64,000 bases of DNA from Methanobacteriota archaeon. GTDB lineage: Archaea > Thermoplasmatota > Poseidoniia > Poseidoniales > Poseidoniaceae. Positions within the stretch are counted from its first letter, which is position 1. Every line of letters starts with the position of its first letter. The notes under the pieces were generated by a model. That model was not told the DNA's origin and searched no databases. It worked only from the letters and a program-made list of their open reading frames with translations. The position numbers and the translations under genes were made by a program. Below are positions 1,941 through 64,000 of the stretch, piece after piece. The stretch lies in contig PSPT01000001.1 in assembly GCA_004195635.1 (NCBI GenBank), forward strand, positions 1-64,000. The letters are read 5' to 3'.

Positions 1941-3839
1941 ATGGCGATTCGGGTCGGGCTGGCAATGCTACAGGGCGCCCGACACGAACATGCTCAGGCA
2001 ATTATTGCTGCATCAAAGCAACTTGATCTAAATATTAAAGTCATTTCATTAAGGACTGCAAGTGATTTGAAAGATGGTATTGATTGCCTTATTTTACCTG
2101 GTGGTGAAACAACGGCAATGCGAATTGCTAGTAAATCTGAACGGCTCTATCCTGCACTCTTTGAGTGGATGAAAGATAATCCACATTCGCCTGTTTTGGG
2201 CACTTGTGCCGGAGCAATTCTAATGTGCCAACTTGGTGAAGAAACAGAGTGCATTGTTGATGCAGTAATAAGTAGAAACTCATATGGTCGGCAAAAGGAA
2301 TCCTTCCAAGCCGATGTTCAAATCAGTGGTTTGACATTTGAAGTGGAAAAAGAATTGTCAAACGAGATGACGCTACCTATTACGCCATTGGATAATTCAT
2401 TCCAGAATATTATTGGTGAGACCTCTCTCAATCATCGTCCATTAATTGTATCCAGCAGTTTGATTGAATCACATGATGAACATATTTTCCCGGCAATATT
2501 TATTCGTGCACCGCGCTTTGGTCAAATAGGTGAAAATGTTAGCGTAATTGCTACAAATGGCGACGAAGTAGTCGGAGTATTAGAGGGGAATAAAATGGCT
2601 CTTACATTTCATCCCGAATTGACTTCAGATTACCGTTTTCATCGCTGGCTCCTGCAAAAAAGCAATGACGGGGATGCCCCCACCCACCGATTGAGCAAGA
2701 TGGACCAAGTACTGCCGATGGCGTCAAGTGTATTCCCCCCAGAAAGAGGCGAAGCCGAGGGTTGTGTTCAGTGTCAAAAGGGTAGCAAGTTAGTACTTTT
2801 TGTGACGGGTGAGTGCCATTGGAAGTGTGATTACTGCCCGCTTTCAGAGAACCGTCGCGAAATTGATATCATGTATGCAAATGAGCGCCCCTGCACTCAA
2901 ATGAGCGAGGTTGTTGAAGAAGCAAGAGCAATGCGGGCAACCGGTACTGGAATCACTGGAGGAGACCCGATGATGGCTCTCGAAAGGACACTTGATGCTT
3001 GCCGCATTTTGAAGTCAGAATTTGGCCCTGACCATCACATCCACATGTATACAAGTTTACCCTTTGATCCACGCCATGCCTCAAGATTAGCGGAGGCTGG
3101 TTTAGATGAAATTCGTTTTCACTTGCTTGATCTAAAGATGGAAAAATATATTGGAACAATGCAAGCATGCACAGAAGCCGGACTTTTCGTTGGAGTGGAA
3201 ATACCTGCAGAGCCGGACAAAGAGGTTGAATTATTTGCTCTTATTGAGGAATTACGCAGCGCCCCAATTCAATTTCTAAATCTCAATGAACTTGAAATCA
3301 CTACTGGTAATCAGGAAAATATGGAAATTAGAGGGTACAATCTGTCCATGGAGATTACTGCAGGTGCTGCGGGAAGTGCGGAACTTGCCATCGCCCTAAA
3401 AAAGCGAGTAAATAATGCCTTGCGGGGCTTGCCAGATAACATAGATAATGCAATCCATTTACCCTTTGGTTTTCATTTAAAGTTCTGCACAGCCAAATTC
3501 AAGGATGCAGGTCAGTTAAGGTCACGCTTTCGCCGGCGGGCAGAAATGTCTATGCGGCCATATGAAGTTCTAACCGAGGATGATACTTTGTGGTTTGGAG
3601 CATTATACTGTCCTCCTGAACATGCACAGGATGATATTGCAGAAATAGCAGAATATTACGAGATTGACAAATCTTGGTTGCATTGGGATGCGAAGAATTT
3701 ACGAATTGAATTGCCTTTATTTTTGGCCGAGGAAATAGCAGAAACTGTTTCAGTGGCAATTGCTGCGGTTGAAGTTCATCCCACGCACGAGCGTTTGGAG
3801 GTTGGATTAACTTGGCTCAATACCCATCGGCCCAAATGA
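1941..3839 (+). CDS. Fusion protein: PdxT-like glutamine amidotransferase + COG2108-like radical SAM domain
   Basis: N-terminus MAIRVGLAMLQGARHEHAQ...LPGGETTAMR...LGTCAGAILM...FHPEL (PdxT Cys and His/Glu). C-terminal half KGSKLVLFVTGECHWKCDYCPLSENR with CX3CX2C and GTGITGGDP. Single uninterrupted ORF; ORF track start 1905, start 1941 preferred from PdxT N-terminus. Confidence 0.85.
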   Translation: MAIRVGLAMLQGARHEHAQAIIAASKQLDLNIKVISLRTASDLKDGIDCLILPGGETTAMRIASKSERLYPALFEWMKDNPHSPVLGTCAGAILMCQLGEETECIVDAVISRNSYGRQKESFQADVQISGLTFEVEKELSNEMTLPITPLDNSFQNIIGETSLNHRPLIVSSSLIESHDEHIFPAIFIRAPRFGQIGENVSVIATNGDEVVGVLEGNKMALTFHPELTSDYRFHRWLLQKSNDGDAPTHRLSKMDQVLPMASSVFPPERGEAEGCVQCQKGSKLVLFVTGECHWKCDYCPLSENRREIDIMYANERPCTQMSEVVEEARAMRATGTGITGGDPMMALERTLDACRILKSEFGPDHHIHMYTSLPFDPRHASRLAEAGLDEIRFHLLDLKMEKYIGTMQACTEAGLFVGVEIPAEPDKEVELFALIEELRSAPIQFLNLNELEITTGNQENMEIRGYNLSMEITAGAAGSAELAIALKKRVNNALRGLPDNIDNAIHLPFGFHLKFCTAKFKDAGQLRSRFRRRAEMSMRPYEVLTEDDTLWFGALYCPPEHAQDDIAEIAEYYEIDKSWLHWDAKNLRIELPLFLAEEIAETVSVAIAAVEVHPTHERLEVGLTWLNTHRPK

Positions 3840-8495: not shown

Positions 8496-9971
8496 TTGCC
8501 CTCTCCGCCAAGGATGGTTGACATGTCATTTGGGCAAAGATTCGGCATGGATTTCACAATTTTCAAGGAAAAACAAACTTGGAAGGCTTTCGCTATTTCA
8601 GTCGTGCTATTCAGTATTATTGCCTATTCTGCATTAGGCGTAACGAATCTTTCATCATCCTTCCAAACATCAGATGATATCAAACCAGTTGCTGATTTTG
8701 AATTACAAACAGTTAATCGAACTGGGATTGAGGATAATGTTACTAATGAAACCGGATGGTTTAGATTATCTGAACATCGCGGCAAAGTAATTGTTCTTGA
8801 TTTCATGGCGCATGATTGTAGTGCCTGTCATGTTGCCCAAGAGCATCTTGAGGCAAACATGGACGAATGGCAATCCCGAGATTCAGAACATGAATTGTTG
8901 ATTATTGGAGTTGGCTCATGGTATCGAGGTGATGCTGCTGAAACTCTAGGATATCTTAATACCAGTGATAATGAATATCATGTACCTCACTATCCAACGG
9001 GATTAGCAAGTACTGAAGCGGTTATTGTCAATGCTACAAGTGATGAAAGGGCGGATATGAGAGAGAGATACGGAATTATTGCAATCCCTGTATTAATGGT
9101 CATTGATGACGAAGGTTATGCCTTGAATATCAAATTGGGTGGTGTGGGTGATTGGGGAGATTTTGATTCTGCTATTACTACTGCGATGGACGGAAAGGGT
9201 GAGGACATTCGCATAGGGGTAAAAGCTACTGAAAATAACATGACAGGGGTGCTATTTTTCGGCCTCATGTTGTCAATATTAGTTTATTTTTCACCTTGTG
9301 CATTTCCAGTTCTCCCCGGTTTCATTTCATATTATATTTCTCTCGGGGCACGCGAGGATGAGTTGTTAGAATCCGGGAAAATAAAAAAGCCTATGCCTAA
9401 TTCCGTCACTATAGGCTTGATGTCTGGGTTAGGAATGTGGACTTTTTTCCTGTTCATAGGAATTATTGCATTGATAATGGGTGATGCATTTGCCAGGTCT
9501 GGCTTGATACATTATTTGGCTTTAGGGATCGCTATATTATTACTAGTCCTCGGTTTTTTCATGCTGACTGGAGGAACTGCTCATTTCATGGGTTGGGTGC
9601 AAAAAATTGTTGATAAATACTCTACAACTGAAACAGATGAGGTATTTACTCCACGAAGAAACATGTATCTATACGGACTTGGATACGCAGCAGCAAGTAT
9701 TGATTGCACTGCTGCAGCCGTACTTCCGTCTATTGTTTGGTGGTCAACTCTTGGTGGAAATGCAGTAATGATTGGCCTTGGTTCTCTAATGTTTGGCCTA
9801 ATGGTAATGATGGTATTAGTGACCGTTTTCGTAGGACTCGGAAGAAATATGATGGTTGATTTCTTACGCCGCTCTACAGGTACAATCAAGATGATAGGCT
9901 CATGGATGATGATGTTTGCTGGTTTTGGGCTGATACTATTCCTGACAAATCCAAAGTTGTTCAGTTTCTAA
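8496..9971 (+). CDS. Thioredoxin-like domain fused to CcdA/DsbD-type transmembrane thiol-disulfide carrier
   Basis: MAHDCSACHVAQEHL (CxxC redox motif) followed by multi-TM segment with FSPCAFPVLPGFISYY and IDCTAAAVLPS (CcdA cysteines). Confidence 0.82.
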   Translation: MPSPPRMVDMSFGQRFGMDFTIFKEKQTWKAFAISVVLFSIIAYSALGVTNLSSSFQTSDDIKPVADFELQTVNRTGIEDNVTNETGWFRLSEHRGKVIVLDFMAHDCSACHVAQEHLEANMDEWQSRDSEHELLIIGVGSWYRGDAAETLGYLNTSDNEYHVPHYPTGLASTEAVIVNATSDERADMRERYGIIAIPVLMVIDDEGYALNIKLGGVGDWGDFDSAITTAMDGKGEDIRIGVKATENNMTGVLFFGLMLSILVYFSPCAFPVLPGFISYYISLGAREDELLESGKIKKPMPNSVTIGLMSGLGMWTFFLFIGIIALIMGDAFARSGLIHYLALGIAILLLVLGFFMLTGGTAHFMGWVQKIVDKYSTTETDEVFTPRRNMYLYGLGYAAASIDCTAAAVLPSIVWWSTLGGNAVMIGLGSLMFGLMVMMVLVTVFVGLGRNMMVDFLRRSTGTIKMIGSWMMMFAGFGLILFLTNPKLFSF

Positions 9972-33801: not shown

Positions 33802-34016
33802 TTACAAGCAACTTCTAATTGCACTGATGGCTACATTGCAGTAATATTGTAATGCATTGATGTGTGATTGAAATAATCATTGTCAATATATTCAATTCCG
33901 AGGTGCATCCAAGCAATTTCACTCAATTTTCCGCTCTGAAAACCAAGATGCTCGCGAGGGCGCATTCGCACGCGAGAGGGGCAGAATTGAAAGAGGACCG
34001 CCTAGAGGTCAATTCA

Positions 34017-36791
34017 ATGCGGAAGGTGCTATTTGCGGTTTTTCTCGTTGCCACCTTGCTGGCTATGAGCGCCAGTGCGCCTTTGGCAAGCCAAAACTTG
34101 GATGCTAATTCACCCCAAACTCCTTTTGCTGATGAAGCCACACCGGCAAAGGCTACTCTCGCAACTCATTCAGATCCAATTGACCAAGCGCTTAAACATA
34201 TTTTGCAGCAATCTTCACCTGAAACTTCGTTACAAGTAATGATTCAATTTACAACTGGAGCTACTGAAGAAAAGTGGGATTTTCTGCGTATTCGGGGGAT
34301 TACTCCACTCCATAATACACGGGTCGTGCCTTCGGTTTTTGCGGTTGGACCTGCACGGGCGATAGAGGAATTAGCAACTTCCTCCGAAGTTCTTTGGGTT
34401 GAATGGAATTCTCCAATTGAGCAATATATGAATCAAACCGTTGATACTATTCTCGCCCGAAATGTGTGGAATCGCGAGGTACTTTCCAAATCGGGAACAA
34501 CTACTGCTGAAAGCACAAATTTACGCGGTGATGGTGTCACAGTGGTAGTTTTGGATAGTGGTATTGATGCAACCCATCCCGATTTAGATTACAATCCTCA
34601 GAGCCCTGCATCCCCCGATGTTCCTGATGCTTCTGACAAGGTTATTTACAATGCTAAATTGGACCAGGGAAGCGGTTCATCTACTCCAAACTTTGTGTGG
34701 TTGCCATTGCAGAACACCGATACAACGAGTGGCCACGGCACTCATGTTGCCGGGACTGTTGCGGGGAATGGTGATGCAAGTGCAGATGACAAATTAGGTG
34801 TGGCACCTAATGCCTGGCTAATTGGATTATCAATGGGCGAAGCCGTTTTCACTATTGATGAATATTCAGGATTAGAATATGTCTATGATTTATCAGAACC
34901 TGGGTCTGCTACTCAAGATGCTTGGAATATTCGCGTAGTTAGCAACTCATGGGGTCCAGGTTTTCCTTTTGATTCAGCAGATAGCAACGATTTAACTGTG
35001 AAAATTATTGATAGGTTATCATGGGAAAATAATGTTGCAGTAATTTTTGCTAATGGGAATGATGGCGGTGATGGTTCAGAAGACAAATCAAATATTTTCG
35101 CTAAAGTTCCAAGTGCAATTGGAATTGCTGCAGCAAATAGAAATGGCGTAGGTATGTCAGATTTCAGTAGCAGAGGTATTGATTCTGATATTACGACTTG
35201 GCCGGATATTGCAGCACCAGGTGTGGATATTTGGAGTGCCGCAGCCCGCGTAACAATGATCGGTGGAGCAATAGGTGCAGGTGATACCGCATCAGGGGAT
35301 TTAGATTACTACTATCTCGCAATATCAGGTACAAGTATGGCGACTCCACACGTTGCCGGTTTGGTTGCAATCATGTTCCAAGCCGCACCGAGTTTGCATA
35401 TGAGTCAAGTCGACGAGGATCTTTCAGAAGATGGAGATCCAGCACTATACGATCCGACTGGTACTGCACCTCCAGCTACCGCTTCGCGACAAATACATGA
35501 AGCGGAATTAATTCTCAAATTAACCGCAGACCGAATAGTCAGTGGAGAAAATTTGGCCGCATTTAATGAAACGGGAATAATGGGGCTGCCATTTGACTAT
35601 GCTCAAGGGTACGGGATGATAAATGCAGACAAAGCAGTTGCAACTGCCCTTGCTCTTCAGCAATTAAGAGACCCTAATGGTGATGGTGAGATTGACTACC
35701 CCGACCTAACTGTTTGGGATGCGATTAACCGTACAGCGCATATGTTGCTTGAGGAGGAAATTGTTCGCAACGGAGATATGCTTGAGAGTGAATGGGATGG
35801 GGAGTTTGCAGTATTCAGTACTGGTGCTGACTTCCCCCCTGCGAGTGCCCATCGAAAAGAGATTTGGATTCCGGCTGGAACAACTAGAGTACGTGCTGAT
35901 ATGGATTATTCACCTCTTCCGACAAGCATTTTGTGCCCAACGAGTGCAAATTTACGGCTCGCCCTCGATAAGGATGGAGATGGGAATTACGAGGAAAACG
36001 ATATTGCTGGTGTTGAACTTACCTTTACAGGCGGAACTGAAGAAGGCGCATGGTGGGGTTTTGATGTTCAAGGAAATGCTGCTGGAACTTGCTTGACACC
36101 TAATCCAAGCACAAGCGGCCCTCGTTCACCATATGCAATTGATGTAATTGCCTGGCTGAAGCCAGGTGAGTATTCTTTGAATTTGAATCAATCAGAAGAT
36201 TGGATTGTGTCGGGCATAGAAGGCCCATCAGTTCATCTTGACCGACTTTGGTACAAACATGTAAATGATGATGTGGTAGCAAATGAAGAAGAAGGCAGTG
36301 GTTTTGCAGGCATGTTCAAGTGGATGCAAAAGAATTGGTGGGTGCCGACAATAATCGCCTTGATTTTTGCAATGATGATAATTGTACTTAATGAGAACTC
36401 CCGAGAGATGATAAATAACTGGCGCACAAAGGACGACTACGATGAAGATGAGTACAGCGGGGATGTCTTGGACGGAGAGGTTTTGGAAGCAGAGGTCTTG
36501 AACGAAATGCCTAAGTTGCCATCTTTTCCAGTTTCCACTCAAAATGTTGCACCGGTGGTTCAACCATTATTGGATTTAGGAGAAGAAGTTGTTGAGACAG
36601 AAGTCGTTGAGGCAGAAGTCGTTGAGGCAGAAGTTGTTGAGACAGAAGTCGTTGAGGCAGAAGTCGTTGAGGCAGAAGTCGTTGAGGCAGAAGTCGTTAT
36701 TGATCCGCTAGAAGTGGAATTTGTTGAGGCAGAAGTCGTTGAGGCAGAAGTTGAAGATGATGAATTGGATGCCTTTTTGGATGATTTTTAG
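34017..36791 (+). CDS. Membrane-anchored subtilisin-like (S8) serine protease with acidic tandem-repeat cytoplasmic tail
   Basis: VVVLDSGIDATHPDL, GHGTHVAGTVAGNG, SGTSMATPHVAGLVA; signal-like MRKVLFAVFLVATLLAMSAS; TM WWVPTIIALIFAMMIIVL; (EVVEA)n tail. Track start 33864. Confidence 0.88.
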   Translation: MRKVLFAVFLVATLLAMSASAPLASQNLDANSPQTPFADEATPAKATLATHSDPIDQALKHILQQSSPETSLQVMIQFTTGATEEKWDFLRIRGITPLHNTRVVPSVFAVGPARAIEELATSSEVLWVEWNSPIEQYMNQTVDTILARNVWNREVLSKSGTTTAESTNLRGDGVTVVVLDSGIDATHPDLDYNPQSPASPDVPDASDKVIYNAKLDQGSGSSTPNFVWLPLQNTDTTSGHGTHVAGTVAGNGDASADDKLGVAPNAWLIGLSMGEAVFTIDEYSGLEYVYDLSEPGSATQDAWNIRVVSNSWGPGFPFDSADSNDLTVKIIDRLSWENNVAVIFANGNDGGDGSEDKSNIFAKVPSAIGIAAANRNGVGMSDFSSRGIDSDITTWPDIAAPGVDIWSAAARVTMIGGAIGAGDTASGDLDYYYLAISGTSMATPHVAGLVAIMFQAAPSLHMSQVDEDLSEDGDPALYDPTGTAPPATASRQIHEAELILKLTADRIVSGENLAAFNETGIMGLPFDYAQGYGMINADKAVATALALQQLRDPNGDGEIDYPDLTVWDAINRTAHMLLEEEIVRNGDMLESEWDGEFAVFSTGADFPPASAHRKEIWIPAGTTRVRADMDYSPLPTSILCPTSANLRLALDKDGDGNYEENDIAGVELTFTGGTEEGAWWGFDVQGNAAGTCLTPNPSTSGPRSPYAIDVIAWLKPGEYSLNLNQSEDWIVSGIEGPSVHLDRLWYKHVNDDVVANEEEGSGFAGMFKWMQKNWWVPTIIALIFAMMIIVLNENSREMINNWRTKDDYDEDEYSGDVLDGEVLEAEVLNEMPKLPSFPVSTQNVAPVVQPLLDLGEEVVETEVVEAEVVEAEVVETEVVEAEVVEAEVVEAEVVIDPLEVEFVEAEVVEAEVEDDELDAFLDDF
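36585..36750 (+). repeat. 15-bp coding tandem repeat (consensus gaagtcgttgaggca, peptide EVVEA), interrupted near 36700-36720
   Basis: Direct reading: repeated (gaagtcgttgag[gc/ac]a) units in the 3' end of the subtilisin ORF. Confidence 0.9.
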
Positions 36792-53618: not shown

Positions 53619-54290
53619 TTAATACGGAACATCTTTCCAGCCGAGCTTGTATCCAAGAATATTGAAAGCCCTGTGAATAATTGGGGTGAGAATTAGAAGA
53701 CCTAACATCCCAATCCAAACTCCCTCAGCGGAATGATAGGTTGAGGGTAGGAAAATAAGGCCCCCTATGAAAGTAAAGATGGCAAAAGGTAAGGTGTCAA
53801 GTAAGGGTGCCTTACTACTAACACCCCCCTCTCTTTTTAATCCACGTCTGCGTTTCATAAATGAACCTGTACTATCGCCTACAAGGCTAAAAAAGCCGAG
53901 TAAGGTTCCTAAATAGAATGCACTTCCAATCCATCCAAGGTTAAGAAAACTGAATGTGCCAATACCGCTGCCATTAATTGAAATATCAATAAATGGAGCG
54001 TTGGTCAAATCGTTGCCACTAACTAACCAAACCATAAAAATGGCGAGCAAACCACTGGTTAATGACCCCCCTATTAGTCCATTCCAAGTTTTCCCATCAC
54101 CAAGAACACGATTTCCATCCTTGTGGGTTCTTCCGCCGTCAATAGGCCACGGACCATACCCTGTTTTAGGAAGCCATTTTCCCCACATCATTGCAAAGGT
54201 GTTGACCAAATAACCTGGTAAATAAAGCCACAGGACACAAAGAACCAATGTGAATATTCCGAGTTCTTCAAGGCTAACTAAACCCTCCAT
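53619..54290 (-). CDS. carS: CDP-archaeol synthase (CarS/DUF46 family)
   Basis: LPGYLVNTFAMMWGKWLPKTGYGPWPIDGGRTHKDGNRVLGDGKTWNGLIGG; GTLLGFFSLVGDSTGSFMKRRRGLKRE. Track start 54353. Confidence 0.87.
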   Translation of the reverse strand: MEGLVSLEELGIFTLVLCVLWLYLPGYLVNTFAMMWGKWLPKTGYGPWPIDGGRTHKDGNRVLGDGKTWNGLIGGSLTSGLLAIFMVWLVSGNDLTNAPFIDISINGSGIGTFSFLNLGWIGSAFYLGTLLGFFSLVGDSTGSFMKRRRGLKREGGVSSKAPLLDTLPFAIFTFIGGLIFLPSTYHSAEGVWIGMLGLLILTPIIHRAFNILGYKLGWKDVPY

Positions 54291-54430
54291 ATTGTGTCCT
54301 ATACTCAAGCAGCCTAAGAGGTAAACCCATTTGAATGATAGATATTGAAGCACATTCTAGATGCTTTTCGAAGCGAAATAAATGAATGATTCGCCACAAT
54401 ACTATTGAGCCATGCCTTTGAGCGCACAAC

Positions 54431-55711
54431 ATGACAGGTGACGAGGGCCGAGTAGTACTTGTTGTTGGGGGGGGTGGGCGCGAACACGCTTTGACCATGT
54501 CCTTAACTTCAAGTCAAAGCGTGTCTGCAGTTCATGTTGCACCAGGTAACGCAGGAACTGCAGCAATCGCAACTAATCATCCAATTTCAGCATCAAATAT
54601 TGATGGAATGCTGGAATTAGCATTAGAATTAGCAGTAGATTTTGTAGTTGTTGGCCCCGAAGCTCCGTTGGTTGCCGGTCTTGCCGACCGATTGCGTGAA
54701 AATGGAATTGCTTGCTTTGGCCCTGATTCAGAAAATGCAATGCTCGAAGGTAGCAAAATAGTTGCCAAACAAGCAATGGCGGATTTGGAAGTCCCTACTG
54801 CAGATTATTTTGTCTTACAAGCTGGTGAGAGTCTTGAGGAAGATATTGAGGAAGCGTTGGATGTTTTTTCTGGAGAACCATGGGTTATCAAAAGAGATGT
54901 TTTGGCTGGTGGGAAAGGAGTTGTAGTTACAGAAAACCGCAATGAAGCAACCAATTTCATCAAATCTTCAATTGAAACCGATGGTGAAGTCTTGGTTGAG
55001 GCATTTCTTGCTGGTGAAGAAGTAAGTATGCTAGTAATAATGGATGAGCATTCAGCCATTTGCCTTCCTCCAAGTCAAGATCATAAGCGAGTTGGAGATG
55101 GTGATTCAGGCCCCAACACTGGTGGAATGGGCGCTTATTGTCCTGCTCCCGTTGTAACTCCCGAAATCAATTCACGAATAATGCAACGAATTGTAATGCC
55201 TATGCATGAAGGTCTTTCTTCGCAAGAAATCCCTTATCGTGGAGTCCTATTTATTGGGCTAATGATCGATGCTGAAGGTAATCCATTTGTGGTTGAATTT
55301 AATGTTCGCTTTGGCGACCCAGAGTGTCAAGTAACTCTACCACTGATTGCTTCTGATTTTGGCGACATGTTATACTGTGCAGCAACTGGAACTTTAGTCG
55401 AACATGAGGATGAGTTTAATGACTTATGCAGCCTTACTGTTGTTTTGGCTTCAGAGGGTTACCCTTCCACGCCGATAAAAGGACGAATGATAACTGGTGA
55501 GGGGATCACATCATCTGGCAATTCGTGGATATCTCATGCAGGTACAAAATTGGTAGATGGCGAATTAATTTCAAATGGCGGGAGAGTTCTTTCATGCACT
55601 GCTATTGGTGGTTCCTTACAAGAGGCTGCCGAACGTGCATATTCCTTAATTGAATCATTAAAATTGGAAGGCTCACATTATCGAAAAGATATCGGCTATC
55701 GCGCACTTTAA
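54431..55711 (+). CDS. purD: Phosphoribosylamine-glycine ligase
   Basis: [77 protein letters not shown]. Confidence 0.94.
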
Positions 55712-55878: not shown

Positions 55879-58800
55879 ATGGGAGAAAAAAAAATAAACA
55901 GGAATAGTCCGGCATCTTTGTTGGGGTGGCTAATAGCACCCCTAGCAATATTGCTGGCCTTTGCGACAAGCCAAATCATCGGCTTTGAATTGATGGATGA
56001 AGAAGGCACAGTGGGCTTTGGCTTGCTTGCAGTTGCTGCAATTGCAGCAACAATACCTCGCATTTTGCGTGAAAACAATATCCTCTCCCTAGGAAAGACC
56101 CGAACCTCTTTGTTGTTTTTCGCAGTATTTGTACTTGCATCTTTTGGCGTTTCGTCAATAGCTGGCCCACTCGTAGGATTGCTATTCTTTGTGCTTTCTT
56201 TTGTAGGGCACTTGTATGATAAAGGCCTTCGGCATGAAGAATACACAATCCTTACTTTTGCAGTAATTGGATTCTTCTTTGCTCTCGGAGTTGCAGGGAT
56301 GGCAGATACTTGGGCTCCAATTGACTTTGATCTAGATGGTGATGCAATGACTTATGAAAATTTCACCGATCAACATAGAGTGGTTACTGGATTCCTATTC
56401 TTTAGCACATTAATGTTGAGCATCTTAGTGGGCTCAATAATTGCAATTTTGCAACGCGGAGTTATCTTTGCTTCAGGTAGCGGCAGTTGGATGAGTTACT
56501 TGCCAAGTACCGATTCAAAGAATCCTATAAAGAGTGCTTTACCACTTTTATTGGCATTATCTGTTTGGGCTGGTGCACACATCGGCTCATTAGTACACTT
56601 CGGTATTAGCGACGAAATCGTTCGTCTTGGATTAACTGTCGAGGAAGTCTCATATGGTCACATCGGCTTCTTTTGGTCACTTTTCACGGGTATTATTGCC
56701 TGTGTTGTAGCATTATTCTATGCTGAGAGATGGTTTACCCGTGCAATGATATTGAGTTCTGTATGGATTCTTTACACTGCAGGTCTATGGCAAGAACATG
56801 GACTTTACACTGCAGATTGGTTGGAAGGAACTTGGGGTGTTGTCATGTGGGCAGCATTTACTTTCTTTGCTTTCGTAGGTGCTTTCTATCTTGCAAGCCA
56901 TGAAAAATACGGCAATTGGAATATACGTCCAAACTATGACCCAAGCCCAGCTCGCCAATGGTGGTCTGCGCATTGGGTAGGAATAATGGTCTTCTCTGCT
57001 TTCGTAGTTGCACTATGTGTGCGTATTCTATGGAATGTAATTCCAGCAATGAACGCTACTGGTACTGGCGGATGGGACCTTACTGGAGGTTCTGACCCTT
57101 GGTACATGAAGAGAGCCGTTGACTACATAATTGCAAACAATGCTCATTTCATTTTGGATGCAGACCGTGCTTACCCACTTGGGGATATCAATCCTCGTCC
57201 ACCACTATTTACCTGGTCTCTTGCACTTGGAGGGGTTCTCGTTGCTCCATTCATTGGAGAGACTCCTGAAAATGCAGTATGGTGGGGCGTTGCGGCATTA
57301 CCGGCTCTATATGGTTCTCTAACAATACTCCCTATCTTTGCAATGGCCAAAGAACACTTCGGAAAGGGTGCTGGTGTAATCGCAGCATGGTTGATTGCAT
57401 TAATGCCTGGACACGTTAGTCACAGCACTTTCGCTTTAGCAGACCACGATGCTTTCGTATTGTTATTCATGGTACTCGGTTTCCATTATTATTTGAAGGC
57501 AGTAAAGTATGGTGGATTCGCAAGACTTACGCCTGAATCTTCATTGTCTGTAAGTTATGTTAAGACTGCAATATTAGCTGTTATCGCTGAGCGTAAAGCA
57601 GCAGTAAATTATGCTATTTTGGCTGGAGTGTGTATTGGCGTAGTTGCTCTTGGATGGAAAGGTTTCGTTTATGGGCCTGGGATTCTTTTCTTAGCATTCT
57701 TTACTCAAGTTATCTTTAACCTAATTTACCGTAAAGATAGTACAATTCTTACTGTAATTACAATAATGATGTTTGCGACAACTTTTGCTTTGGTATTACC
57801 GGTTTATGCTCATTACCAATTAGGACTAATTTGGGATGCTTCTGGTATGCAGCCGCTATTCTTTATCTTTGGCTTCACACTTGCATTAGGAATAATCGCA
57901 GTTTGCTTCCGCGACAAACCATGGTTACTCGTATTTGGAACTGCTTTCTCAAGTGCAGTTGGAATTGCATTGATTCTTTGGATTCTTCAATTAGCCAATT
58001 TGTACAGTGGTTGGGATATCCTAACAACCGGTGGTTATTATTTCAGTAAGAACAAGATATTCGGAACAATTGCAGAAGCACAGGCTCCACAACGCGGAAT
58101 GCTATTCGCATCTTTCGGACCGATCGTCTTCGTATTGGCTCTTGGATCTGCAGTATTTGGATTATGGAACGGAATAAGAAATAGTAAAGGGCCGCAATTA
58201 ATTCTGGGATTGTGGCTACTTATTGCAGCATACATGGCCTGGAGTGCAGGTCGTTTCGTATTCAATGCAACACCGGCAATGGCAGTTCTTGGAGCATGGG
58301 CAATCGTAATGGTTTGGAACCTATCTGGCGTTGCAAAATTCAAAGAAACATGGAGGCGCAACGGCCTAAGAACTCCTGCAGACAGATTCAAATCTGCTCG
58401 AAAGGCTCTTTGGAAGAATCCTGCATTTGGTGCAGTATTCTTAGTTATGCTTCTACTGATGAGCCAGCACGCTACATATGGCCTTGATGCTGGTATCCCA
58501 CGTGGAGGCGAGGGGGCTGCCGAACTTGATGCTGAATTCCATAACATTGCACCTGATATTCTAAGGTATGATATTTGGGATATGTCTATTCTTGACCATG
58601 AGGATTACGATCCAGCCACAGGAAATATGTGGTATTTGGGCTCTTTTGGTCCAGGATTCAATAGTTATGGTTGGAATGTAGCATATGATTGGATGGCTAA
58701 TCAAGATACAGACCAAGCATTTGGCGAGCGCCCAGCATTCGTATCTTGGTGGGATTATGGATTCCAAGCATTGGCACAAGGACAACATCCTACCGTGTCG

Positions 58801-61800
58801 GACAATTTCCAATCTGGTATTCCCGCATCTGGTAACATGTTGTTATCAAGAAGCCAAGCAGATACAATCGCATTATTCATTTGGCAATTGTCAGATGGTG
58901 ACCAAACATACAACGACAATCGTGTTGGTGAATATGAACTCACTGAGCGCTTTGCCAATGATTTGTCGAAGTATTTAAATGCAGAGCAACTTGCCGAATT
59001 TGAAGAAATCGCAATTTCAATGGATTCTTCTATTGTAGTTGATCGTTCATTTTCAGTTGAAGTTAGCAACCAAGATGCAGTTCTTGCTAAAGGGCAGCAT
59101 CTAGTTAATGGTATACATGATGAGGATGCACCTGTTGTTTGGCAGATTTACCAAAATGAAGAACTGGTAGCATGTACTGGTGGCGATTATGATTGTGATG
59201 GCCCAGCATATGCAAATGAAGATGATGCACGTCGTATTTTTGAAAGCCCAACCTTCATCCGAACTGCTGATGAAAATGTAGTTGGCACCACTCACTATAT
59301 TATTGACGATTACTGGTATACGTCTGATATTGTTGAAGAATTTGAGAGCGTAAGCACTAATCTTCATCGCAAGAATGCTCGCCTAGCATTAACTCGTAAT
59401 TTATTGACAAGTATCCTCTCTGAACAACAATTAGTTGACTTATATGCAGATTTAATGGACAATGAAATGTACCAAGTGCAAAATAGTGAAGGCCTACCTG
59501 GAGAGATTCTAACTCGAAATCATGAAATCCGATACTTCGCAGTTGACAATCGTCTATTCCCAGTCGGTGGCCATTATACTCAAGATCGCTACTATAATTA
59601 TGGGAATCCAACTGGTATTTTCCATGCGCCAACAGGCTTGAGTGGTCAAGACCTTGACCACTTTGTTGATACTGTTTATATGACCGAAAGAGGCTCTTTC
59701 AGTGACGAAATGACTTCTAGCCAATATGATGTCGAGCAAGTATCTGACTTCATGGCTCAGCAAGCAGGGGCAGACTTCGACCCAATTCGATTAATTGATG
59801 TCCGCGTAGATCACCTATCGGCATTCTATGAAACAATGGTTGCAAGAACATACGTTGGCTATGGTGCATCAACCCTTGGTCTTGTTTCTGGTTCCAGTAA
59901 CCCCTCTCCTGCTCAGCACTTTGGACAAACCGGTACGCCTGGTTCAATTCTTTCACAAGCAGTGCCTCTGCCTGCGGCAATGATGAACCATTTTGTTATT
60001 GCAAATTGGTATGGTGCTGGAATTCCAGACGATGTTGACTTCCCAACTGAATCAGCAGATCAACGTTCGATTCAATATGCAAATACAATGGTAAAGATTC
60101 TCAAGTATTACACTGGTACAGAAGTTTGTGGCCAAGTAGAGATGAGTGACAGTGGTGAAGGAATGGATGGCACACGTGTCCTTGTTGAACGCGATGCCTT
60201 TTCTGGAGAGGATGCAGTTGATATGGATAACAATACATATTGGATTCCAATTGCTGCAGTTGATGCTGATGAAAACGGTGATTGGTGTACAACTGTTCCA
60301 GCAGGACATATTCGATTCAGCGCATATGTGGGTGATAACAATCCCGAAATGGACCGTGATGTCATCCGCACCATCGATTATGGAGGCTCATTAGGTGACT
60401 TATTGCTTGTAGATAATACTGCCCGAGAAACAAATCCATTTACTGGACTTCTTGGTGAAGTATCCAATATGACTTGGTTGACCGAATCTCACCTCAATAT
60501 TACTGGGGTTCAAGGACACTCTGGCGAAGCATACCCTACTCCGGTATCGCTTGAAGTAGAAGCATCTGGTGTTAGTGGAATTATCGCTTGGAGTGGACAT
60601 GAAGATTTCAATGGTGTTCCACTCGTAGATACAGAATTTATTCTACGTAACATTTGGAGTGAAACTGATAACCGTACTGTAATGACTACCAATGGTTCAT
60701 TCACTACCGATGAAACAAGAATTGTCCAGGGAACTGGTCAAGTAACTTTCGTTGAATCTGGTGAATTCACAAGTGACGGAATTGCAATTGCCCGAAACTT
60801 TACCGGCAATTTTACGCGTACTTTCACTGATAAGCAATCCTACACAGGTAATGGTACATGGACGGGAACCGGAACTTTAGATATGGTTTGGATAGATGCC
60901 GAAAATGTACTTGCATGTAATGGTACAGGTGAAAATCAAACAATGCCCGAGGAGGAGAGTGTTTGTTTACAAGATGATGGCGAATATTTCCTTGATGGTA
61001 CAATGACTGCTTATGGTCGTTTCACAACCAAAGGTTCAGTTTCATTCACCACACAAATGGAATCTGCAACCTTTGAAGGCAATGGAATCTATGTGGGAAC
61101 TGGAACAATTAATGGGACAGGATTATTTATTGGAATTGGAGAATTCTCTGGTGAAATGGTGGAACCGGGTTCATTCTATGTTACTGGATTAATGCCAGGG
61201 CGCTATAACATGATTGCACAATTAGCAAATGGCCGAGAAATATTGCTTCCTGACCCTGTTGATATTGGATTAGAACCAAGCTTTGACTTAGATATGTCAA
61301 TTCCGGGTTCAATATTCATGGCCGAAGAACTTCATGATATGGAAGGTGAGTTAGTAAGTAATATGACTTTTGAATTACAAGATCTCGGATTAGAAGATTC
61401 GGAAGTAGTTTACATTACTACTGATGAAAATGGTTCCTTTAGTCATGGGCCCTTGCCATCAGGTGACTATTATTATCGATTTGATATTGATTCTGATGGG
61501 TTTTATGAATTGAATAATACTTTCTACGCTATTGGTGACTCGGAGAATTTCACTATTGATTCATCAATACCGACTCATCATGATGTAACAGTTCACATTG
61601 CAAGCACTGTTTGGAATAGTTCAACTGGACAATTTGAAGTATGGGAAAATATAAACCAGACAGTTCTCTTTACTGAATCTTCTTTCCCTGATTTGACTGT
61701 TGAAGCAACATCTGACGCCAACGGAGATTTGTTGGTTGAATTGCCAATGGGCATGTGGATTGCAACCGATTTAGCTGACCCTACCTTCATCCTATATTCT

Positions 61801-64000
61801 GAATTTGAATTACTAGATGATGATTTAGATCTTGGTGAATGGAATTACACTAGAAGTGTGAATGTTACCGGACAGGTCTGGCAGCCCGAAGATTTCGCTA
61901 TAGCCGGACAAGGCATGGATATTAATTACAATTTAAAGTCTGGACTGGGTGTTGAGTTCCGTTCTGGAAACATTGTAATAACCGATGTTACCGATATGAA
62001 TGGTTCATTTGAGGTTTCATTACCCGAAGGAATGATTTTCGATGCAACTACTTTCTCCACTACTAGTTTCTCTACAGCAGGGGCACACTTTACCGTTGTC
62101 AATGAAATGGATCCACTGAATTTGACTTTGCAACTTGCAACAAATACCATTGGTTATTTGACAGTATATGATAACATGACACTTTACGAATCAAGTTTGC
62201 CAGGTTGGTCTGTAGTTGAGATAAAGGCTACAGATGCAGAAGGAATTAGTTGGTACACCGATGTTTCATCCGATGCAAGATTTGAGTTCCGCCTTCCAGA
62301 TGGGGAATATGTTCTTTCTGCCGAAGATTCAAGTTTAAATATTTCAAACCTCAATATTACAATTGATGGTGAGGGAGGAGTGGATTTGAATATGATTGCC
62401 CAGCCGGGATTAATTACTGTTTATCTCAATGTATTCCTAGATACAAATGACGACTCGGTATTTGAAAATGGAACTGCAGTCAGTATTGACCTAAAAATCA
62501 CCCCCCTACTTGCAGGACATGGCGAGCAGGTGAATCTAACTGTTTCTGATTATTCCGACATCGGTAATTTGTCAATTGACCTTGAATTGGGTCGCTATGA
62601 TGTAAGTGTCGTTGAGCAAGATGCCCGTGACGCAAATGCTACTGACCATCAAACCGCAACTGTAAATCCAATGATTGGATTAGACATTGGTCTCGACATT
62701 TCCGAAGAAGCAACACTTGTTGCACTTCAAGCATCTTGGCTTCTTGAAGCAACTATCCTAAACGCAACACTTGGGCCCATGGCGAATGCCTCAATATTCC
62801 TCCACGATGAGGATGATAGTGGTTTTGTTCTAGTAAGTTCAGATGAAAATGGAACTATTGCACAATATATTGCTCAAGGCAATTACAGTGTTGTTCTTCA
62901 GGGTGTTGATGTAAATGGCGTGCAAGAAGAATTCCGTGGATTAATTAACATCAATGAGAATTCAACTCGTCGTAATGTTTCATGGATCGCAAAGCAAAGC
63001 ACTTGGCTTGATATTCATTTGGATGAATCATCAACCGGGACAAATTTGTCAAGTTACATTATTACTGCGGTAAGCCAGGAAGGTCTAGGAAATGTAAGTC
63101 TAAGTTCAACAAATGAAACTGGTGACATGCATGTGTCCCTATTCCCTGGTGAATGGACCCTCTTCATGAATCGCACTGATTTGCAAACACGCTGGACTAT
63201 TGACGAAGGGGTATACAATCTCAATGCAAGCCAGATGCTACCAAATGAAAACATTACAATGAATGTTTCAGCACAAAGATGGGTTGAAATTGGCGGTAAA
63301 GTATTCTGGGACCTTAACGGTGATGAAGCTCCAAGTTATGGCGAGGGAATTGATGATTTCAATGTCACTCTACTAGGTAATGTGACTTCGGTAAATGCGA
63401 CTATTGCTACTGATTCAGAAGGTGTTTGGCGCCTATTTGTACCTATTGAGGACACATTCAACGTGACTGTTGAAAAAGAAGGTTTTGATACAGAATGGTA
63501 TGGCAATGAAACCATGGAAGGCTTGGTTGTTGGAGCAGATCATGTGAGCGAGGACATTATGGTTTCTGCTGGCTCAGTTAGCGCATCTGGAAACATCACT
63601 CATCTCTTTGATGATGAGGATGTCCTTAATCAGCTAGAAGTATGGTTATTCCCACAATCCGGCCAAGACCGTGATGCGATACAGATTTCTCCAGTCTTTG
63701 ACAATGGTTCTATGACTTGGTCAGCAGATGTTGAACCAGGTACTTGGATTATTTGGGCAGGCCTGCCTGAAGGCGAGCGCAATAATACTGCAGTTGATGT
63801 TGGCATTGGCTTGCTCGATGCAAGTGTTGCCACTGGAGGAGTTGTTGATATTGAAGTAAGAGATGGTGGAATTGTTAATATGGATTCCAATTGGCTTGAC
63901 TTTAACCTCGTTGAACTCAACTTTGGCGATTCAAATACTTCTGATGCCCCAATAAGTGATGCACCGGTAATTGTAAGCGTGGACCTTGGCGAAGGAATCC
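55879..64000 (+). CDS. aglB: Giant STT3/AglB-type oligosaccharyltransferase, 3' truncated by window (>2,700 codons open)
   Basis: ATG at 55879, MGEKKINRNSPASLLGWLIAPLAILLAFA...; frame stays open to window end at every line checked; GGSDPWYMKRAVDYII (DxD-like EL1 region, ~57088) and FVSWWDYGFQALAQGQHPTVSDN (WWDYG at 58747-58761). Absent from ORF track because no stop in window. Confidence 0.87.
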   Translation, partial: MGEKKINRNSPASLLGWLIAPLAILLAFATSQIIGFELMDEEGTVGFGLLAVAAIAATIPRILRENNILSLGKTRTSLLFFAVFVLASFGVSSIAGPLVGLLFFVLSFVGHLYDKGLRHEEYTILTFAVIGFFFALGVAGMADTWAPIDFDLDGDAMTYENFTDQHRVVTGFLFFSTLMLSILVGSIIAILQRGVIFASGSGSWMSYLPSTDSKNPIKSALPLLLALSVWAGAHIGSLVHFGISDEIVRLGLTVEEVSYGHIGFFWSLFTGIIACVVALFYAERWFTRAMILSSVWILYTAGLWQEHGLYTADWLEGTWGVVMWAAFTFFAFVGAFYLASHEKYGNWNIRPNYDPSPARQWWSAHWVGIMVFSAFVVALCVRILWNVIPAMNATGTGGWDLTGGSDPWYMKRAVDYIIANNAHFILDADRAYPLGDINPRPPLFTWSLALGGVLVAPFIGETPENAVWWGVAALPALYGSLTILPIFAMAKEHFGKGAGVIAAWLIALMPGHVSHSTFALADHDAFVLLFMVLGFHYYLKAVKYGGFARLTPESSLSVSYVKTAILAVIAERKAAVNYAILAGVCIGVVALGWKGFVYGPGILFLAFFTQVIFNLIYRKDSTILTVITIMMFATTFALVLPVYAHYQLGLIWDASGMQPLFFIFGFTLALGIIAVCFRDKPWLLVFGTAFSSAVGIALILWILQLANLYSGWDILTTGGYYFSKNKIFGTIAEAQAPQRGMLFASFGPIVFVLALGSAVFGLWNGIRNSKGPQLILGLWLLIAAYMAWSAGRFVFNATPAMAVLGAWAIVMVWNLSGVAKFKETWRRNGLRTPADRFKSARKALWKNPAFGAVFLVMLLLMSQHATYGLDAGIPRGGEGAAELDAEFHNIAPDILRYDIWDMSILDHEDYDPATGNMWYLGSFGPGFNSYGWNVAYDWMANQDTDQAFGERPAFVSWWDYGFQALAQGQHPTVSDNFQSGIPASGNMLLSRSQADTIALFIWQLSDGDQTYNDNRVGEYELTERFANDLSKYLNAEQLAEFEEIAISMDSSIVVDRSFSVEVSNQDAVLAKGQHLVNGIHDEDAPVVWQIYQNEELVACTGGDYDCDGPAYANEDDARRIFESPTFIRTADENVVGTTHYIIDDYWYTSDIVEEFESVSTNLHRKNARLALTRNLLTSILSEQQLVDLYADLMDNEMYQVQNSEGLPGEILTRNHEIRYFAVDNRLFPVGGHYTQDRYYNYGNPTGIFHAPTGLSGQDLDHFVDTVYMTERGSFSDEMTSSQYDVEQVSDFMAQQAGADFDPIRLIDVRVDHLSAFYETMVARTYVGYGASTLGLVSGSSNPSPAQHFGQTGTPGSILSQAVPLPAAMMNHFVIANWYGAGIPDDVDFPTESADQRSIQYANTMVKILKYYTGTEVCGQVEMSDSGEGMDGTRVLVERDAFSGEDAVDMDNNTYWIPIAAVDADENGDWCTTVPAGHIRFSAYVGDNNPEMDRDVIRTIDYGGSLGDLLLVDNTARETNPFTGLLGEVSNMTWLTESHLNITGVQGHSGEAYPTPVSLEVEASGVSGIIAWSGHEDFNGVPLVDTEFILRNIWSETDNRTVMTTNGSFTTDETRIVQGTGQVTFVESGEFTSDGIAIARNFTGNFTRTFTDKQSYTGNGTWTGTGTLDMVWIDAENVLACNGTGENQTMPEEESVCLQDDGEYFLDGTMTAYGRFTTKGSVSFTTQMESATFEGNGIYVGTGTINGTGLFIGIGEFSGEMVEPGSFYVTGLMPGRYNMIAQLANGREILLPDPVDIGLEPSFDLDMSIPGSIFMAEELHDMEGELVSNMTFELQDLGLEDSEVVYITTDENGSFSHGPLPSGDYYYRFDIDSDGFYELNNTFYAIGDSENFTIDSSIPTHHDVTVHIASTVWNSSTGQFEVWENINQTVLFTESSFPDLTVEATSDANGDLLVELPMGMWIATDLADPTFILYSEFELLDDDLDLGEWNYTRSVNVTGQVWQPEDFAIAGQGMDINYNLKSGLGVEFRSGNIVITDVTDMNGSFEVSLPEGMIFDATTFSTTSFSTAGAHFTVVNEMDPLNLTLQLATNTIGYLTVYDNMTLYESSLPGWSVVEIKATDAEGISWYTDVSSDARFEFRLPDGEYVLSAEDSSLNISNLNITIDGEGGVDLNMIAQPGLITVYLNVFLDTNDDSVFENGTAVSIDLKITPLLAGHGEQVNLTVSDYSDIGNLSIDLELGRYDVSVVEQDARDANATDHQTATVNPMIGLDIGLDISEEATLVALQASWLLEATILNATLGPMANASIFLHDEDDSGFVLVSSDENGTIAQYIAQGNYSVVLQGVDVNGVQEEFRGLININENSTRRNVSWIAKQSTWLDIHLDESSTGTNLSSYIITAVSQEGLGNVSLSSTNETGDMHVSLFPGEWTLFMNRTDLQTRWTIDEGVYNLNASQMLPNENITMNVSAQRWVEIGGKVFWDLNGDEAPSYGEGIDDFNVTLLGNVTSVNATIATDSEGVWRLFVPIEDTFNVTVEKEGFDTEWYGNETMEGLVVGADHVSEDIMVSAGSVSASGNITHLFDDEDVLNQLEVWLFPQSGQDRDAIQISPVFDNGSMTWSADVEPGTWIIWAGLPEGERNNTAVDVGIGLLDASVATGGVVDIEVRDGGIVNMDSNWLDFNLVELNFGDSNTSDAPISDAPVIVSVDLGEGI

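Follow-up and report, generated by a model that had tools for sequence, protein, structure and literature searches.

Which roles are played by the long stretches that precede and follow the STT3/AglB core of a giant oligosaccharyltransferase (OST) in Marine Group II archaea (order Poseidoniales)? This question is raised by the gene at the end of the window, that is, the whole stretch of 64,000 nucleotides of contig PSPT01000001.1 analysed here. In the surface ocean, Marine Group II is one of the commonest groups of uncultured archaea. The sole OST detected in this group is the three-part protein described below, whose own outer arm resembles an in-built substrate.

The giant OST is encoded by a single reading frame

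An ATG at position 55879 of the forward strand opens a frame that runs uninterrupted to the window edge at 64000, and is the same frame for which the original prediction had counted more than 2,700 codons. Extension along the parent contig (G000:C25) revealed the stop after 3,171 codons, at the window-equivalent position 65394, i.e. 1,394 bases (1.4 kb) beyond the edge. The last 464 residues, encoded past the edge, comprise domains resembling NEW3 and CARDB and end in a C-terminal transmembrane (TM) helix followed by a short basic tail. That the ORF track missed this gene is most likely due to the fact that lists of closed ORFs drop frames running off the window edge.

There is next to no chance that adjacent genes were merged here by an assembly or annotation error. 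The frame is broken by single frameshifts in a few assemblies (loci L101, L127, L140, L143 and, in genome G002, L184), but the recurrence of this single frame with matching neighbours in scores of independent assemblies from two families refutes this explanation. At L184, the two OST halves flanking the break (near 9862–9889) are collinear around residue 1541, and the break is therefore probably a sequencing error. The ORF of a genus-mate has the same length of 3,171 residues, the frame at L147 (AH-287-P07) is unbroken with 3,190 residues, and 63 of the 79 named loci contain both ends of the ORF, nearly all of these measuring 3,120–3,321 residues. A frameshift or an assembly join, or separate genes in sister genomes, had been named as findings that would speak against the proposed layout. 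Neither frameshift nor join was detected in the 3,171-codon frame, and the three parts form one frame in sister genomes as well, leaving the layout unrefuted.

The core carries the motifs of an AglB/STT3 enzyme

Residues ~356–874 (56944–58500, forward strand) constitute an STT3/AglB transmembrane core. PF02516 (STT3 TM domain) matches residues 405–802 (E 2.4e-15; 57.4 bits versus a cut-off of 24.5), and among solved structures, Archaeoglobus fulgidus AglB (3waj; residues 358–813, E 1.7e-11) ranks first. The best NCBIfam match, over residues 371–993, is TIGR04154 (archaeo_STT3, archaeosortase A system-associated; E 1.9e-53), yet with 182 bits versus a curated cut-off of 450 the giant OST is no member of this family. 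The first DxD motif GGSDPWY of external loop 1 (residues 403–409; 57085–57105) and the WWDYG motif (957–961; 58747–58761) are located where originally placed. They are accompanied, likewise on the forward strand, by the second DxD motif DHD of external loop 2 (522–524; 57442–57450), by TIAE as the TIXE motif in external loop 5 (730–733; 58066–58077) and by R792 (58252–58254). GGSDPWY is found in 71/71 relatives, DHD and R792 are also invariant, and among the 71 the TIXE position reads TI[AG]E 30 times and TV[AG]E 41 times. From what is established for AglB, we take R792 as the counterpart of its conserved TM arginine. All five elements are conserved order-wide and align with most other Thermoplasmatota families, and judging from these intact motifs the protein is predicted to be an active OST. 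In A. fulgidus AglB, DXD, TIXE and WWDYG represent metal-binding and sequon-reading motifs (PMC8342417).

WWDYG is followed by a conserved, sequon-depleted globular region comprising residues 1001–1500 (58879–60378, forward strand). The C-terminal domains of AglB proteins usually carry DGGK (euryarchaeal) and DK/MI motifs. When the 71 relatives were searched for these patterns, DGGK was present in none, D..K...[MI] in 8 and M..I...[IVW] in one; with neither DGGK nor a consistent DK/MI motif found in this way, the globular domain is regarded as divergent.

Distribution, origin and gene neighbourhood

Exactly one STT3 was detected in 185 of the 194 genomes of the order, which cover 21 genera, and it forms one long frame wherever the contig allows; the source genome (80% complete) has a single STT3 too. 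Homologues with 46–95% identity come from Ca. Poseidoniales, Poseidoniaceae and Thalassarchaeaceae, the giant single-frame OST is found all across the two families of the order, and the Poseidoniales cores form a single clade in the tree (support 100/100). OSTs of the sister order within the class (f3) measure 2,317–2,363 residues and possess the arm and the C-terminal helix but not the N-terminal module, while many other Thermoplasmatota families have OSTs of 2,080–2,740 residues and some of 930–1,430 residues. Profiles of the core, mid, arm and tail regions match outgroup proteins, whereas the N-terminal profile does not. From the presence of the arm across the Thermoplasmatota and of the module in Poseidoniales only, it follows that the arm and C-terminal helix are old in the phylum and that the order gained the module on its stem. 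The three-part layout has thus proved to be real and order-wide, but it is not a one-off, and only its N-terminal part is specific to Poseidoniales.

The gene order purD, OST, 403-aa subtilase and ~1,430-aa secreted protein is conserved in both families and was undetected outside the order. In the window, the purD-like upstream neighbour, which is part of this order-wide synteny, occupies 54431–55711 (forward strand). It is adjoined by a gene for a small membrane protein of 244 aa (53619–54353, reverse strand), which is kept near the locus in an orientation that differs between the two families. The subtilase-like protein, directly downstream of the OST order-wide and equipped with one N-terminal TM helix, is encoded past the window (L002:10595–11806) and may be a processing protease of the arm or of other surface proteins. 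Elsewhere in the window, at 33864–36791, lies an S8 protease-like ORF, whose C-terminal tail past the TM helix consists of a EVVEAEVVEAEVVETEVV-type repeat. A contig labelled 'Deltaproteobacteria bacterium AH-558-G13' (L104, JAOMAZ010000025.1) bears a Poseidoniales giant OST together with the purD neighbour; this genome is probably mislabelled or contaminated. In the coastal Marine Group II genus O1, an 'oligosaccharyltransferase' gene has been reported among the transcripts raised when the genus was active (PMC9723583), and since there is one STT3 per genome, this is probably the giant OST gene.

The N-terminal module and its relation to lipid-linked glycan

Extra polytopic sequence ahead of the STT3 core had been predicted, and indeed residues 1–355 (55879–56943, forward strand) form a module of ~10 TM helices that precedes STT3 TM1 and occurs in Poseidoniales only. 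An AlphaFold (AF2) model obtained with 68 relatives is confident and nearly all-helical (pLDDT 85.4, pTM 0.85). The loops carry 12 K+R inside versus 1 outside, so that the positive-inside rule fits 10 TM helices with the N-terminus inside, a topology that places STT3 loop 1 outside, as required. In a survey of 245 genomes of the phylum, the module was present in 82/83 members of the order and joined to the OST unless the contig ends; elsewhere in the phylum, the only separate copies to come up were marginal fragments, two in number, with E values of 0.003 and 0.009.

No Pfam family was matched by any consistent number of the 68 module sequences, a sequence search of the PDB yielded no convincing relative, and a PDB fold search with the module model returned none (best E 0.46, TM-score <0.3). 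Several candidate identities were discarded. A MOP flippase (Wzx/AglR-type) was rejected, as no MOP Pfam match was obtained among the 68 members and no PDB fold at E <0.4. Profile–profile comparisons were negative both for a duplicated STT3 piece or internal repeat and for kinship with the N-terminal extensions of the f11 and f16 OSTs. These latter proteins (L087 of f11 and L086 of f16) have a different extension of ~250 residues and contain about 100 sequons, which corresponds to 3.5–4.1-fold enrichment.

Most plausibly, the module is an accessory membrane domain that receives or flips the lipid-linked glycan. The support for this hypothesis of lipid-linked oligosaccharide (LLO) handling is correlative and comes from the distribution of MOP flippases. 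PF01943 was detected in 86/92 other Thermoplasmatota genomes and in 17/21 Poseidoniaceae, versus 2/15 Thalassarchaeaceae (families inferred). A profile built from the order's own MOP proteins detected them in 36/41 Poseidoniaceae and 7/38 Thalassarchaeaceae, leaving 31/38 genomes of a family that retains the OST throughout with a MOP-type flippase undetected; searches with PF13440 and PF14667 gave no sign of a hidden MOP copy. Eight Thalassarchaeaceae genera without MOP flippase have kept the N-terminal module. The link between MOP absence and the module is correlative: flipping in these genera may rely on an ABC or unknown flippase, and MOP proteins found elsewhere may have other polymers as their substrates. 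As a marker of the donor pathway, AglH-type PF00953 was uninformative, being found in 0/45 genomes of the order and equally negative in the Haloferax control. That the module represents a new LLO flippase or intake device fused to the OST, enabling one polypeptide to flip the glycan, transfer it and display it on its own arm, strikes us as quite improbable. If true, the module could take the place of the MOP flippase apparently missing from most Thalassarchaeaceae genera.

The arm is rich in sequons and predicted to be anchored at both ends

Beyond the globular region, residues 1501–3130 (60379 to the window edge at 64000, which corresponds to residue 2707; forward strand) build an arm of ~1,630 residues consisting of CnaB/CarboxypepD_reg/transthyretin-like β-sandwiches. 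This is in agreement with the anticipated sequon-rich β-repeat region of more than 1,000 residues, and the repeat GKVFWDLNGDEAPSYGEG quoted for it is indeed located in the arm. The predicted model of residues 1001–2190 (pLDDT 82) is almost all β past ~1530, its pTM of 0.56 leaving the domain arrangement uncertain. In a Foldseek search, the arm model matched CnaB-type pilins, Cna B-repeats, a TIE protein and NOMO of the BOS complex. Among Pfam models, PF13620 (CarboxypepD_reg) exceeded its cut-off for the whole protein in two stretches (45.3 bits versus 32.3), SpaA, NEW3 and CARDB scored just under theirs, and the NOMO models reached 17.2 and 13.5 bits versus 27; in arms of other families, SdrD_B and NOMO domains are also above cut-off. 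A Gly-x-Gly long-strand insert with the invariant residues C1680 and C1696 (residues ~1590–1765; 60646–61173, forward strand) is unmatched in outgroup arms. The C-terminal TM helix (~3141–3159), which is followed by the basic tail, is present at the end of 70/71 relatives. As this helix re-enters the membrane, the arm would form an extracellular loop tethered at its two ends, and the original notion of an 'envelope-spanning' arm gives way to one that returns to the same membrane.

Sequons were counted as N-x-S/T with P excluded at +1 and +3. The arm contains 55 of them versus 17.7 expected from shuffles (3.1-fold, z 9.8), and in the arms of 63 relatives the ratio has a mean of 2.6-fold and a minimum of 1.96-fold. 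The pooled arms hold 2976 forward sequons as compared to 1236 reversed ones, 819 adjacent N-S/T and 876 N-x-x-S/T, and the sign is reversed in the 500 residues after WWDYG (99 forward versus 287 reversed), which means that sequons are favoured in the arm and avoided in the catalytic domain. Pooled Asn retention amounts to 0.46 in arm sequons versus 0.29 for other arm Asn; for the arm of this protein p is 7e-4, such p-values ignoring shared ancestry and serving as a guide only. N1540 belongs to a sequon in 69/71 sequences, and N1745, N2197, N2253 and N2846 mark further conserved sequons. Sequon density reaches 3.4 per 100 residues in the arm versus 2.1 at most in large surface proteins encoded elsewhere in the window. 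The predicted richness in sequons is strengthened by these data, the enrichment being significant, conserved and arm-specific. Enrichment is just 1.1–1.4-fold in the outgroup arms L082, L083, L093 and L095, and since several outgroup arms are without strong enrichment, arm glycosylation would not be universal in the wider group.

We read the sequon statistics as a sign of selection for glycosylation of the arm. Self-glycosylation is probable because the sequons are enriched, conserved and asymmetric versus their reversed counterparts, and because the catalytic globular domain is depleted of them; the giant OST is moreover the only STT3 found.

A model for the giant OST and its alternatives

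We lean, slightly beyond an even chance, towards the reading that the protein is Marine Group II's single AglB-type OST, endowed with a self-glycosylated, double-anchored arm as scaffold and with a glycan-receiving or -flipping module. Accordingly worded as a model, a plasma-membrane OST with its active site outside would transfer lipid-linked glycan, received or flipped by the N-terminal module, to the Asn of N-x-S/T. Its C-terminal globular domain would run into the CnaB/transthyretin-like chain, which would return to the membrane via the C-terminal helix and would most likely be N-glycosylated at dozens of sites by the same enzyme. Probably, the arm would then act as a glycan-coated scaffold that holds the enzyme in the surface layer, near emerging acceptor proteins. 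This scaffold role is a hypothesis, and β-sandwich arms can be purely structural.

A first alternative is a plain surface-architecture fusion, which we consider doubtful. Here, a structural, adhesive or protective arm would have no part in catalysis and its sequons would just provide a glycan coat against proteases or viruses. CnaB/CarboxypepD_reg chains are indeed typical of pilin and adhesin stalks, sequence divergence is quicker in the arm (pairwise identity about 0.30) than in the core (0.55), and the length of the arm varies among the families of the phylum. However, an incidental fusion should sometimes split, whereas the fusion is retained in the genera of the order wherever the contigs permit, at a length kept within 3,120–3,320 aa, and the two- to four-fold sequon enrichment is above that of other surface proteins of the window. 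Alternatively, the arm might be equivalent to an accessory subunit, replacing ribophorin I, OST48 or NOMO and retaining nascent chains where they leave SecY for co-translational glycosylation. We judge this unlikely, even though the fold search with the arm model picked up NOMO of the human BOS complex (E 3.9e-6) and outgroup arms surpass the cut-off of 27 bits for the fifth NOMO domain in Pfam (L094, 49.7; L087, 37.4; L091, 33.5 bits). The NOMO matches of the window protein itself remain below this cut-off, and CarboxypepD_reg-like domains match many unrelated proteins, which argues for a resemblance at the level of the fold.

Comparison with known systems

A search of open-access literature turned up no description of a giant AglB or of a Marine Group II OST. 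The protein belongs to the STT3/AglB family; what is new is its architecture, not the kind of enzyme. Concrete targets are offered by the membrane module with its orphan fold, by the flippase that may be missing and by the sequon-coated arm, which lends itself to metaproteomics. With archaeal AglB/STT3 (A. fulgidus AglB, PDB 3WAJ/5GMY/7E9S) the protein has in common the STT3 TM core, both DxD motifs, TIXE, WWDYG and an outside C-terminal globular domain. The solved AglB (3waj chain, 875 aa) matches only residues ~358–813 and the WWDYG region; the giant OST, in which DGGK was not found, adds ~355 aa before and ~1,630 aa plus the C-terminal TM helix after. In other Thermoplasmatota families, the large STT3 proteins share the core, the CarboxypepD_reg arm and mostly the NEW3/CARDB tail with C-terminal TM helix. 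In contrast, they are without the Poseidoniales-type module and detectable Gly-x-Gly insert, and extend about 1,500–1,900 aa past WWDYG as compared to ~2,200 in Poseidoniales.

The idea of a flippase module ahead of a catalytic module is reminiscent of MprF, in which a flippase domain is fused to a synthase (PMC5898192); this is an analogy only, with no sequence or fold match to the module found. Gram-positive CnaB pilins and adhesins as well as TIE proteins have tandem CnaB/prealbumin-like domains similar to the arm, but are not membrane enzymes. NOMO of the BOS complex at the ER translocon is likewise composed of a transthyretin-like β-sandwich chain followed by a C-terminal TM helix, and resembles the arm at the superfamily level only. 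Eukaryotic NOMO is a separate protein unfused to STT3, whereas the arm is fused to the giant OST, which thus presents a prokaryotic case of an OST covalently joined to a NOMO- or pilin-like scaffold.
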